A DNA stretch of 64,000 nucleotides from Nitrospirota bacterium (GTDB lineage: Bacteria; Nitrospirota; JACRHL01), in assembly GCA_016212085.1 (NCBI GenBank), contig JACRHL010000005.1:124001-188000 (forward strand), written 5' to 3'. Of this stretch, positions 57,143 through 62,981 are shown piece by piece. Below the pieces are notes generated by a model that saw only the letters and a program-made list of their open reading frames with translations, ran no database searches and was not told where the DNA came from. A program made the translations under genes and the position numbers. Position 1 is the first letter of the stretch. Each line of letters opens with the position of its first letter.

Positions 57143-57285
57143 GGGCACTTCTATTAACCGTCGCGAGCGCCATGAGTGCAAGGCGGACGGAGCGCAGAAC
57201 CCGAGACATATCATGGTGATAGGCGAGGGTTCGAGCACCGCCCAACGCAGCAATCGGGGCGCGCAGCAGATTAATAGAGGTGCCC
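57143..57285. mobile_element. 143-bp MITE, copy B
   Basis: Same length and sequence family as copy A, with ends GGGCACTTCTATTAACC and GATTAATAGAGGTGCCC. It is flanked by a 4-bp duplication ATGC (57139-57142, 57286-57289). 9 mismatches to copy A by eye, several of them in or near the ends. Confidence 0.85.
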
Positions 57286-57377
57286 ATGCGTGATGGCGCC
57301 TGTCCGCAGGGCGGATCGTGGCGGTTATTTTCTGGATTACGGGTGTGTTCTGTTTTGGTGTCAACGGGTGAACGCCT

Positions 57378-57423
57378 CCGCATTCCGGTCCGGATGGACG
57401 GGTCTTTCCGGACCGGAATGCGG
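57378..57423 (-). terminator. 17-bp perfect inverted repeat, probable 3' end of the 48-aa peptide unit
   Basis: CCGCATTCCGGTCCGGA and its exact reverse complement with a 12-nt loop. It starts 28 nt past the last stop of the reverse-strand peptide pair. No T-run, so it may protect or end the transcript. Confidence 0.5.
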
Positions 57424-57450
57424 TGTGGCGGCGCATCCCGACAGCCCGCG

Positions 57451-57597
57451 TCAGGCGGCCTTCTTCAGGACATCGTGGAGCGCGTTGGAGTGCTTGGCAA
57501 GGGCGGATGCGCGGCGCTCGGCGTTGATGCCCATGACGGTGATGGCGACGCTGGCGACGGCGGTGAAGGCGATGTAGCCGTAAATCAGGGTGAACAT
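57451..57597 (-). CDS. 48-aa single-span membrane peptide, copy 1
   Basis: Starts MFTLIYGYIAFTAVASVAIT, so the whole first half is a membrane helix. It then has INAERRASALAK and ends LKKAA. Exact length 48, like the two neighbours; 57649 is a close copy and 58171 a distant one. The ribosome site GGAG is 10 nt upstream, and the 25 nt before the ATG (57598-57622) are identical to those of copy 2. No known family. Confidence 0.75.
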   Translation of the reverse strand: MFTLIYGYIAFTAVASVAITVMGINAERRASALAKHSNALHDVLKKAA

Positions 57598-57648
57598 GTT
57601 ATTTACTCCGTATCGTGAGGTTTGTCGTGGTTCCGCAAAAAGGCCGTC

Positions 57649-57795
57649 TCAGGCCGCCTTCTGCAGGGCGTCCGGCTGCGCGCCGGGGCGCTTTGCCAGG
57701 GTGGAGGCGCGGCGCTCGGCGTTGATGCCCATGACGGTGATGGCGACGCTGGCGATGGCGGTGAAGGTGATGTAGCCGTAAATAAGGGTGAACAT
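57649..57795 (-). CDS. 48-aa single-span membrane peptide, copy 2
   Basis: Starts MFTLIYGYITFTAIASVAIT and ends ALQKAA, with the invariant INAERRAS in the middle. It is the first gene of a two-gene unit with copy 1 (51 nt apart) behind the boxed promoter at 57844-57875. The C-terminal part (Lys, Arg, Gln) is probably cytoplasmic. Function unknown. Confidence 0.75.
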   Translation of the reverse strand: MFTLIYGYITFTAIASVAITVMGINAERRASTLAKRPGAQPDALQKAA

Positions 57796-57843
57796 GTTAT
57801 TTACTCCGTATCGTGAGGTTCGTTTCGTTTTCCACATGGCTTT

Positions 57844-57875
57844 AATGTAACGCCCAATTCTGAACGCAAGCTGAA
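57844..57875 (-). promoter_or_regulatory. Promoter with two TTCAG boxes for peptides 2 and 1
   Basis: On the reverse strand: TTCAG-N6-TTCAG (57860-57875), then 10 nt, then TACATT (57844-57849). The boxes repeat every 11 bp, as in sites for OmpR/PhoB-family regulators. Identical geometry occurs at 58365-58396. Confidence 0.6.
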
Positions 57876-57910
57876 TCGGTCATGATTTTTTTAGAGGATT
57901 GACGGATGCC

Positions 57911-57948
57911 TTGCAATCGAACCGCGCAGCAGGTTTTTAGAGGTGCCC
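57911..57948. mobile_element. MITE right-end fragment
   Basis: About 38 bp matching the right end of copies A and B (GCAATCG...CGCGCAGCAGG...AGAGGTGCCC), with TT in place of AA in the terminal repeat. No left end is visible, so it is a decayed or truncated copy. Confidence 0.6.
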
Positions 57949-58099
57949 AGAGGTACCCATGAACATGGGAGGGCACCCAGGCATCTCGCGGCGGCGTGCC
58001 GCCCCGGTTATTGCGTGATTGATGGGCGGGATGGGTGGCGTACCGGACGCCATTTGGCTGGTGCTGTGTTGGGGTGCGGGGTCGGCCGGCCGGCCCCGT

Positions 58100-58141
58100 C
58101 CCGCCCGCCGGCCGCCCCAGAGGGCGTGGCCGGCGGGCGGG
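58100..58141 (-). terminator. 14-bp GC hairpin, probable 3' end of peptide 3 transcript
   Basis: CCCGCCCGCCGGCC and GGCCGGCGGGCGGG are perfect complements, with an inner GCCC/GGGC pairing. It begins 30 nt past the stop of the 58171 peptide, at the same distance as the hairpin of the other unit. Confidence 0.5.
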
Positions 58142-58170
58142 GTTGAGCGCCCTTGTGCGGGCGCCTCGGG

Positions 58171-58317
58171 TTACGCGGCCTTGGGCAGCGAGCGCGCGGT
58201 CCCGCGCTGCGCCCGCAACTGCTCGGAGATATGGCGCTCGGTGCGCACCTCCAGCGCGAAGAGGACGATGCTGGCGACGGCGGTGAGGGTGATATAGGTA
58301 TTGATGACGGTGAACAT
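58171..58317 (-). CDS. 48-aa single-span membrane peptide, copy 3
   Basis: Starts MFTVINTYITLTAVASIVLF and ends LPKAA, and has TERHISEQLR in the middle. Same length and plan as the two tandem copies but diverged. The ribosome site is GGAG with AGGA closer to the ATG. It has its own promoter with the same box geometry. No family recognised. Confidence 0.75.
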   Translation of the reverse strand: MFTVINTYITLTAVASIVLFALEVRTERHISEQLRAQRGTARSLPKAA

Positions 58318-58364
58318 TTCCTGATCTCCAAGGGCTGGGGTTTGTTTGGCTCCCCATTGAGATC

Positions 58365-58396
58365 AGGATACGTCCCGATTCTGAACCGGGCCTGAA
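58365..58396 (-). promoter_or_regulatory. Promoter with two TTCAG boxes for peptide 3
   Basis: On the reverse strand: TTCAG-N6-TTCAG (58381-58396), 10 nt, TATCCT (58365-58370). The segment next to the proximal box (CCCGATT on the plus strand) also matches the other promoter (CCCAATT). Confidence 0.6.
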
Positions 58397-58418
58397 CGTT
58401 GTGTTAGGTTTTCGTTAG

Positions 58419-60258: not shown

Positions 60259-61107
60259 TCAAGGGGTGGGCTGGACGCAGCGGAACCCCACGTCGTTCAG
60301 GCGGCCGGCGGGGTCCAGAAACAGCCGGTAGGTGGCGCGGGAGTTGTTGGCCACGATGTCCATGAAATCCCGCTGGTCCGGGTAGTGGCCCACGCTGGCC
60401 CAGGAGTTGCCGCGCAGCACCTTGACGGTGGTGCCGAAGCGGTCGTCCTGGTAGGTGCCGCCCGGATAGGGCTGGTACCAGTCCGCCGTCCACTCCCAGA
60501 CGTTGCCGATCAGGTCCTTCACGCCGTAGGGGCTGTCGCCGCCGGCCACGGAGCCCACCGGCAGCGTGTGGCCGCGCGCCACGTTCGCGGCGTCGTGGGT
60601 GTAGGTCGAGCCCCACGGGTAGGCGCGGCCGTCGGTGCCGCGCGCCGCCTTTTCCCACTGGGCCTCCGTGGGCAGGGTTCCGCCCCGCCCGTTGCAGTAG
60701 CTCTCGGCGTCGTGCCAGCTCACGTGGGTCACCGGGTGGGTTTCCAGCCCCTGGGGTGGGGCGGGGCCCTGCCAATGGGGGGGTGGCTGGTGGCCGGTGG
60801 CGGCCACGAACGCCCCGTAGGCGCCGTTGGTCACCTCGGTGGCGTCGATGAAGTACGCCGCCAGGTCGACCGGGTGCGCCGGGTGGGCGGTATCGAACCA
60901 CGGCACCATCAGGCCCAGCTCGGCGCCGCGCCCGTCCACGTCCTCCTCGTCGGTGCCCATGGTGAAGGGGCCGGCGGGTATCCGCACCATGCCCTCGGGC
61001 GCGGCGGCCGCCGCGGCGAGCGGCGGCTTCCGTTGCAGGGCGCCGCCCATGGGGTCGCAGGCGCCCAGCAGCAGGAGGCCGATCAGCAGGGGGAGCCGGC
61101 GCCTCAC
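60259..61107 (-). CDS. SUMF1-domain lipoprotein 1
   Basis: 282 aa from GTG 61107 (overlaps the preceding stop). Lipobox LLLLGAC near residue 16. SUMF1 domain: [68 protein letters not shown], and a final GFRC. The segment after LRGNSW has no Cys, so the FGE catalytic pair is missing. It resembles the two upstream proteins. Probably a periplasmic binding or structural role. Confidence 0.8.
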   Translation of the reverse strand: MRRRLPLLIGLLLLGACDPMGGALQRKPPLAAAAAAPEGMVRIPAGPFTMGTDEEDVDGRGAELGLMVPWFDTAHPAHPVDLAAYFIDATEVTNGAYGAFVAATGHQPPPHWQGPAPPQGLETHPVTHVSWHDAESYCNGRGGTLPTEAQWEKAARGTDGRAYPWGSTYTHDAANVARGHTLPVGSVAGGDSPYGVKDLIGNVWEWTADWYQPYPGGTYQDDRFGTTVKVLRGNSWASVGHYPDQRDFMDIVANNSRATYRLFLDPAGRLNDVGFRCVQPTP

Positions 61108-62114
61108 GACGGTTCCCTCCCGGGTGCCGGGGCGCCCTGGGCGGGGGCGTCGGCGGCGCAGCGGAAGCCGAACGAGTTGTTGCGGATTTTTGGCGAGAAA
61201 CGGCTGCGGTTGTAGCTGGGGGCCGACAGGCCGCACCCGTACGACAGGCAGTCGTACCACGAGCCGCCGCGCAGCACCTTGTTTTTCTCGCCATAGAAGT
61301 TGTTGGGGAAGGCGTTGCCCGGGTAGGGCTGGTACCAGTCCACCGTCCACTCCCACACGTTGCCCGACATGTCGTACAGGCCATACGGGCTCCTGCCGTC
61401 CTCGAAGGAGCCCACCGGCATGGTGTCGCCCTTCTCCTTCAGCGAGGCCCAGCGTTGCGGCGAATTGGCCCGGTCCAGGGCGAAGCGGTTGCCCCACGGA
61501 AACACCTGGCCATCGGTGCCGCGCGCCGCCTTCTCCCACTCCAGCTCGTTGGGCAGGCGCTTGCCCTCCCAGTTGCAGAACGCATCCGCGTCCTCCCAGC
61601 TCACGTACACCACCGGGTGGTTTTCCTTGCCCGCCGGGATGCCGTCCTTCCAGTGGCGCGGGGCGCGGCGGCCGGTGGCGCCGACAAAGCGCTGGTAGCG
61701 GGCGTTGGTCACCTCGTAGAGGTCGATGTAATAGGCGGGAAGGGTCACCATGTGTTCCGGCGTCTCGTCCAGGTCGCCCTTGCCCTCGGTGATCTCGCGG
61801 CCGTCGTTGCCGACGATGGCGGGGCCCGCCGGGATCAGCGCCATGTCGGTCAGGTCCGGGCCGTGGGCGACGGGGTGGGCCGGCGCATCGGCGGCGGTGG
61901 TCAGGCCGGTCTCGTGGGAGCCCGCGTGGCACTCGGCGCAATCCGCCTGGCCCACGTCCACCCGCGGGGCGGAGCCGTCGGGCCCGTGGCAGGCGCCGCA
62001 GGTCTCGGCGGAGACGTGGCTGAACGGCACGCCGCTGGTTGCCGGCGCCGTGGTGCCGCGGGGGGCCAGCGCGAGAACCAGGGCCAGCACGAGGGTGACG
62101 GTGAGCGGGCGCAT
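61104..62114 (-). CDS. Diheme cytochrome c-SUMF1 fusion protein
   Basis: 336 aa, signal peptide at the N-terminus. Two heme motifs CGACH (about residue 36) and CAECH (about 58) are followed by a SUMF1 domain from about 90 ([67 protein letters not shown]). After LRGGSW there is DCLSYGC, a C-x4-C as in FGE, but about seven residues further from the NRxR part. It may bind copper or heme; a true FGE activity is not proven. Confidence 0.82.
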   Translation of the reverse strand: MRPLTVTLVLALVLALAPRGTTAPATSGVPFSHVSAETCGACHGPDGSAPRVDVGQADCAECHAGSHETGLTTAADAPAHPVAHGPDLTDMALIPAGPAIVGNDGREITEGKGDLDETPEHMVTLPAYYIDLYEVTNARYQRFVGATGRRAPRHWKDGIPAGKENHPVVYVSWEDADAFCNWEGKRLPNELEWEKAARGTDGQVFPWGNRFALDRANSPQRWASLKEKGDTMPVGSFEDGRSPYGLYDMSGNVWEWTVDWYQPYPGNAFPNNFYGEKNKVLRGGSWYDCLSYGCGLSAPSYNRSRFSPKIRNNSFGFRCAADAPAQGAPAPGREPS

Positions 62115-62123
62115 GGGCGGCCG

Positions 62124-62981
62124 TTACGGAGCCGGTTCCGCCGCCATGGCGCAGCGCACGCCCGAGTCGCGCGTGGCGGCCGTGGGCGGGAAGTAGAAGC
62201 GGTAGTTGGCGCGGGACATCTGCCCCACCACCGCCCGTCGCGCCTCCGGGTCGGGAAAGTGGCCGTGGTCGCCGTAGGAGTTGCCGCGGATCACCTTGAG
62301 CAACTGGGTGAACTTGTCGCTCGCGTAGGCGCTGCCGGGGTAGGCGCGATAGTAGCTGCTGGTCCATTCCCAGGCGTTGCCGATCATGTCCTCCACCCCG
62401 TAGGGGCTGGCCCCCTGGGGGAAGCTGCCCACCGGCATCAGGCGGCCGTGCTCGCCACGGGAGATGTTGGCCTTCGCCTCCTCGAAGCCGTTGCCCCAGG
62501 GGTAGGTGCGGCCGTCGGCGCCGCGCGCCGCCTTTTCCCACTCCGCCTCGGTGGGTAGGCGCTTGCCGAAGTGCATGCAGGCGAAGGTGGCCTGGTACCA
62601 GTTGAGGCCGGTCACCGGGTAGTCTCCCATCCCTTCCGGGTAGTGGTTGTCCTCCCAGGTGGCGGGGGCGGACTGGGGTATCTCGGTCACGTCGAGGAAT
62701 TGCAGGTACTCGGCGTTGGTCATCTCGTACCGGTCGATGTAGAACGCGGGCAGGTCCACGGCGTGGGCGGGGTTGGCGTCGTCGAACAGGGTGAACGGCA
62801 GGCCGTAGTCGGCCACGTCGCTGGTGGCGTCGGTCTGGTCGGTGCCCATGGTGAAGGGTCCGGCGGGGATGAGCACCATGCCCGGCGAAACGCCGGCGGC
62901 CTTGTGGGTCACCGGCAGGTGGGCGCACCCCGACAGGGTGAGGGTGGCCAGCGCCAGCAGGCACGCGTCGCGTAGGGTCAA
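62124..62981 (-). CDS. SUMF1-domain lipoprotein 3
   Basis: 285 aa from TTG 62981, which overlaps the ubiD stop; GGAG is 7 nt before it. Lipobox LTLSGC. SUMF1 domain: [66 protein letters not shown], ending GVRCAM. The FGE Cys pair is absent ([16 protein letters not shown]). Resembles lipoprotein 1 (YPG-x-x-Y, RA-x-YR). Confidence 0.8.

Follow-up and report, generated by a model that had tools for sequence, protein, structure and literature searches.

A family of small single-span membrane peptides, very probably in a PhoP/PhoQ-type regulon, in a class of uncultured Nitrospirota

Examples of small membrane proteins that adjust the activity of sensor kinases come from a small number of lineages, chiefly pathogens in culture and model bacteria. 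In Escherichia coli, the sensor kinase PhoQ is inhibited by MgrB, a single-span protein of 47 amino acids (aa) that is itself a product of the PhoP regulon (PMC2789325, PMC8404706). MgrB is inserted with its N terminus inside and its C terminus outside and has two functional periplasmic cysteines (PMC8404706). PhoQ is also the target of a small activator, SafA (PMC8404706), and the kinase SaeS is activated by the small single-span protein ScrA (PMC12239555). In Pseudomonas aeruginosa, PhoP is reported to bind the sequence CGTTCAGNNNNNRTTCAG, and ChIP-seq gave the motif G/ATTCAG (PMC7916210).

We analyzed a 64,000-nucleotide (nt) stretch of a Nitrospirota genome, here called the window (assembly G000, contig C22, positions 124001 to 188000; genome size, 2.70 Mb). 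The class of this organism is represented in this analysis by four genome assemblies (G000 to G003), one per genus. In the window, the first-pass annotation had described three reverse-strand frames of 147 nt encoding related single-span peptides, and their coordinates, lengths, and motifs were all borne out. Gene 1 (P0003) lies at 58171 to 58317, gene 2 (P0002) at 57649 to 57795, and gene 3 (P0001) at 57451 to 57597, all on the minus strand and each with exactly 48 codons. The 48-aa products align without gaps and have 17 invariant columns. All three contain MFT-x-I at the start, TA-x-AS in the helix, ER-x-x-S, and KAA at the end. Each gene is an open reading frame called by a codon-usage model trained on long or known genes of G000; genes 1 and 2 match the family profile, and gene 3 is part of a repeat. 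Genes 2 and 3 constitute a 183-nt direct repeat with 87% DNA identity (57443 to 57625 and 57641 to 57823), gene 3 being a tandem duplicate of gene 2 with which a 25-nt leader was copied along. This leader, AACCTCACGATACGGAGTAAATAAC, contains a Shine-Dalgarno-like sequence and is identical before gene 2 (57796 to 57820, minus strand) and gene 3 (57598 to 57622, minus strand), as had been noted for two of the three frames. Elsewhere in the window (60259 to 62981), three adjoining genes look by eye like genes for formylglycine-generating enzymes (SUMF1-like), one of them with N-terminal CXXCH motifs.

Gene 3 has no promoter box of its own, and we therefore distinguish two transcription units, gene 1 (unit 1) and genes 2 and 3 (unit 2). 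Thus, the earlier description of three peptides with regulated promoters holds for the two units, each of which is preceded by a box, but not for gene 3 taken singly. As judged from their sequence, these promoter boxes are PhoP boxes of the form CGTTCAG-N5-RTTCAG, located 10 nt before a -10 hexamer. The box of unit 1, CGTTCAGGCCCGGTTCAG (58381 to 58398, minus strand), agrees with this form and with the P. aeruginosa sequence exactly (motif from PMC7916210), and 0.07 matches with at most one mismatch to that sequence are expected in the window. The box of unit 2, GATTCAGCTTGCGTTCAG (57860 to 57877, minus strand), deviates in the second base of CGTTCAG and also in the base that opens the 18-nt motif. 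The hexamers TATCCT of unit 1 (58365 to 58370) and TACATT of unit 2 (57844 to 57849), both on the minus strand, follow 10 nt past the boxes, a spacing that is the same in 14 aligned sites. The geometry TTCAG-N5-GTTCAG-N10-TAnnnT is equal in the two units, in agreement with the first-pass annotation, and the distance from the -10 hexamer to the ATG is 47 to 48 nt in both. A scan of the peptide promoters with the sigma-70 consensus found no site, as can be expected of promoters that depend on an activator and have no good -35 element.

The same annotation had placed a GC hairpin about 30 nt past the stop of each unit. Such hairpins start approximately 27 to 29 nt past the stops, at 58100 to 58141 for unit 1 (GC hairpin; fold z, -5.9) and at 57378 to 57423 for unit 2 (fold z, -4.3), both on the minus strand. 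Neither is followed by a T-run, and a role as terminator is therefore putative. A further hairpin, in the leader of unit 1, begins within the -10 hexamer, so that the transcript probably lacks the greater part of its 5' arm. The leader of unit 2 has no significant fold.

A repeat with inverted ends (GGGCACCTCTATTAA...TTAATAGAAGTGCCC), approximately 135 bp long, was found at 57152 to 57292 of the window, and a partial copy lies beside the unit 2 promoter (57913 to 57949). The genome has at least 43 copies with 82 to 100% identity, some of them at contig ends, and in appearance the repeat resembles a miniature mobile element. Contig C18 has a similar sequence between a PhoP-type box and a two-component system operon (described below).

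The window peptides were extended by profile search to a family of 10 members from three genera. Of the seven additional members, one is a divergent fourth copy in G000, on contig C23 (MYMEIYLTVLF...KKAA). Five are encoded in G002, three in tandem on contig C38 and two behind a gene for a GAF-domain protein, of which a homolog in G000 adjoins box-driven genes for secreted proteins. The last is from G003 and was detected by protein profile alone (E, 0.003). The box before this gene and its G002-like neighborhood independently confirm it: peptide genes of both G002 and G003 sit after the same gene for a CXXCH-rich (multiheme) cytochrome. In G001, an assembly that is 91% complete, the profile search detected no member; one match (E, 0.07) was rejected as chance. 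Outside the class, the profile search of a phylum sample of 396 genomes gave no believable member, with limited sensitivity for a peptide of 48 aa. Its matches (FliF, NfeD-type, and others), read singly, were chance similarities inside other frames. No family match was obtained in plasmids or phages, and a single-sequence scan of named genomes was also negative.

As the first-pass annotation had stated, the peptides fit no recognized family. None of the 10 members matched Pfam above cut-off, and none of the three window peptides matched NCBIfam above cut-off. A weak match to Pfam DUF2973 (PF11189; E, 0.02), restricted to residues 1 to 26, reached 15.3 bits against a gathering threshold of 22.2 and was rejected. 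By these comparisons, the peptides are a new small-protein family of the single-span membrane type. Members share an MFT-like start, a hydrophobic stretch at approximately residues 4 to 22, a variable middle, a basic C-terminal tail, and a K/R/Q-A-A end. AlphaFold2 modeled one helix, confident over the span. With a neutral N-terminal end and a basic C-terminal end, the positive-inside rule predicts an N-out/C-in topology. The AA end is found in 10/10 members but in only 3/127 other called proteins of the same regions, and the last codons vary synonymously among members, indicating that the constraint on this end is at the protein level.

That the frames are untranslated, and that only an RNA or a promoter is conserved, seems barely credible. 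The small size of the frames and the stable 3' hairpins speak for it. In opposition to it stand the conservation at the protein level, the synonymous changes, the fixed ends across genera, the Shine-Dalgarno-like sequences preceding most starts, and a search of Rfam that gave no match. Conservation in relatives, the absence of which had been named as a refutation, was found: members occur in two other genera, and dN was lower than dS in all seven pairs compared, although with few sites the single values are rough.

We searched the G000 genome for the pattern TTCAG-N5-GTTCAG-N10-TAnnnT with at most one mismatch. Five sites were found in 2.70 Mb, and the reversed control gave none. Two precede the peptide units, two precede paralogous genes for secreted helical proteins on contig C23, and one precedes an operon on contig C18. 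Of the six peptide transcription units of the family, the box is present at a comparable position in four: units 1 and 2, the G002 triplet on C38 (GTTCATGGGCAGTTCAG), and the G003 gene (GTTCAGCGTCATTTCAG). The copy on C23 of G000 and the G002 pair behind the GAF gene are without a box.

The C18 operon encodes a cytochrome b561 (Pfam Ni_hydr_CYTB), a diheme cytochrome c (Pfam DHC), a PepSY protein, an OmpR-family regulator, and a histidine kinase. For the kinase, PhoQ was the top NCBIfam model (8e-41, next model 7e-20), with 140 bits against an equivalog cut-off of 497. The E. coli proteins ranked PhoQ (3e-34), QseC (4e-17), and BasS (5e-14), and its closest solved relative is PhoQ. The kinase is thus, by these similarities, of the PhoQ type. 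The regulator, encoded at C18:18712-19374, is 44% identical to QseB, 41% to BasR, and 40% to PhoP of E. coli, and in NCBIfam, PmrA and QseB rank above PhoP, placing it within the PmrA/QseB/PhoP/CarR group without clear membership. G001, G002, and G003 each have one orthologous copy, with 70 to 72% identity.

A box of equal geometry lies upstream of the PepSY/response regulator/PhoQ-like kinase operon in all four class genomes, and another Nitrospirota family, f25, has the same box before cytochrome b561/DHC/PepSY/regulator operons. From this joint presence, phylogenetic footprinting indicates that the box and the two-component system travel together. The peptide genes are not adjacent to the kinase gene. 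The boxes that they share with the PhoP/PhoQ-like operon nevertheless suggest that the peptides are probably made on the command of the sensor, and we regard their membership in a PhoP/PhoQ-type regulon as very probable. Both the sequence and the repeat spacing of the box are identical to those of the P. aeruginosa PhoP regulon, whereas the Nitrospirota regulator falls between PmrA, QseB, and PhoP, and the Nitrospirota regulon consists of cytochromes, secreted helical proteins, and peptides.

The cytochrome b561 and DHC genes in this regulon raise another explanation, namely that the peptides are induced together with these cytochromes and serve a redox complex of the membrane as small accessory subunits, similar to CydX or the CcoM-type peptides of oxidases. 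The multiheme cytochrome gene preceding peptide genes in G002 and G003 points in the same direction. The window neighbors of the peptide genes, in contrast, are acylphosphatase- and JAMM-like genes and not cytochromes, a stoichiometric subunit would not usually have paralogs at several loci, and neither Pfam nor NCBIfam gave a match to known small subunits. We consider this explanation unlikely.

The all-helical secreted proteins behind the box (pLDDT, 88) form a family present in all four class genomes. In G000 they are encoded at L016:11826-12494 and L016:12871-13509, both on the minus strand, with relatives at loci L040, L041, L042, and L053. They have no convincing match in Pfam, among PDB sequences, or by fold. 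A likeness to YfdX seen by eye was rejected: Pfam matched one of six members (E, 0.0018), and neither comparison with E. coli YfdX nor the fold search supported this identity. At two loci with no obvious gene immediately downstream, the box is followed by a similar stretch, TAATCTTTGACTCAGG (L043, G002 C13:14254-14287; L044, G003 C54:9817-9850), which could be a regulated small RNA. In family f25, the same box lies before an operon for TolC-like and membrane-fusion efflux proteins (L111; G158 C33), a hint that metals or another envelope stress may be what the system senses.

This efflux operon and the co-regulated secreted proteins, together with the G002 peptides behind the GAF gene, speak for a further possibility, that the peptides modulate another inner-membrane or envelope protein (a transporter, an efflux pump, or a protease) under the sensed stress, without feedback on the kinase. 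No partner gene, however, is found linked to the peptide genes in every one of the genomes. We give this possibility some weight but do not favor it.

Of the two roles suggested by the first-pass annotation, regulated membrane modulators or toxin-like peptides, the regulated membrane character stands, with a conserved box of the two-component type, and the toxin-like character was not upheld. In favor of a toxin, the peptides are small, hydrophobic, and in tandem. The leaders are short, however, and that of unit 2 shows no significant fold; a simple scan found no antisense promoter-like site at the peptide units. The lack of plasmid and phage matches also argues against it, as does the co-regulation of peptides and sensor operon, which is conserved between genera. 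It is highly improbable that the peptides are toxins of type I toxin-antitoxin systems.

Of the described systems, MgrB is the closest functional parallel, and the peptides resemble it in size, single span, PhoP-type regulon (by box sequence), and co-regulation with the sensor. A blastp search with E. coli MgrB did not match the peptides at an E value of 10, nor was there an MgrB match in Pfam or NCBIfam. None of the ten members shares a conserved cysteine, several paralogs are in tandem, and the topology predicted from charge is N-out/C-in, opposite to the N-in/C-out topology of MgrB. The peptides are thus not MgrB, given the lack of sequence similarity and of conserved cysteines and the opposite predicted topology. 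SafA and ScrA are likewise small proteins with a single span that act on a sensor kinase, an action that we propose for the peptides by analogy. They differ from the peptides in host lineage and regulation.

By the same analogy, the likeliest role of the peptides is to modulate a partner in the inner membrane, and the example of MgrB makes the cognate PhoQ-like kinase the first candidate. The phosphorylated regulator would bind the box and turn on transcription in the manner of class II activators of the OmpR family. The peptide would then insert into the inner membrane with its uncharged N terminus outside and its basic tail in the cytoplasm, where helix and conserved K-A-A tail may bind and modulate the partner. 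If this is the kinase, the peptide could feed back on it as MgrB does on PhoQ, and tandem duplication would raise the peptide dose. The kinase does not need the peptide, since G001 and family f25 have the system without a detected peptide (in f25, none was seen at the five loci read). As a whole, the reading of a new single-span inner-membrane family, made while the PhoP/PhoQ-type system is active and modulating an inner-membrane partner, the kinase first, is our preferred one, held tentatively and with slightly less than even confidence. A narrower version, in which small membrane peptides giving feedback to a PhoQ-type kinase evolved independently a second time, in a phylum distant from the enterobacteria, with a cytoplasmic tail, tandem dosage, and K-A-A as a possible protease degron, is doubtful. 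A degron function of the constant AA terminus is speculation; if true, it would let the peptide signal decay fast once the sensor switches off.

For the four-assembly class, the box gives a regulon map that comprises the two-component system operon with its diheme cytochrome and cytochrome b561, the secreted helical proteins, and the peptides. If the preferred reading is true, the conserved tandem peptides of these uncultured Nitrospirota, tied by their promoters to a PhoP/PhoQ-type system, would point to repeated origins of such an arrangement.
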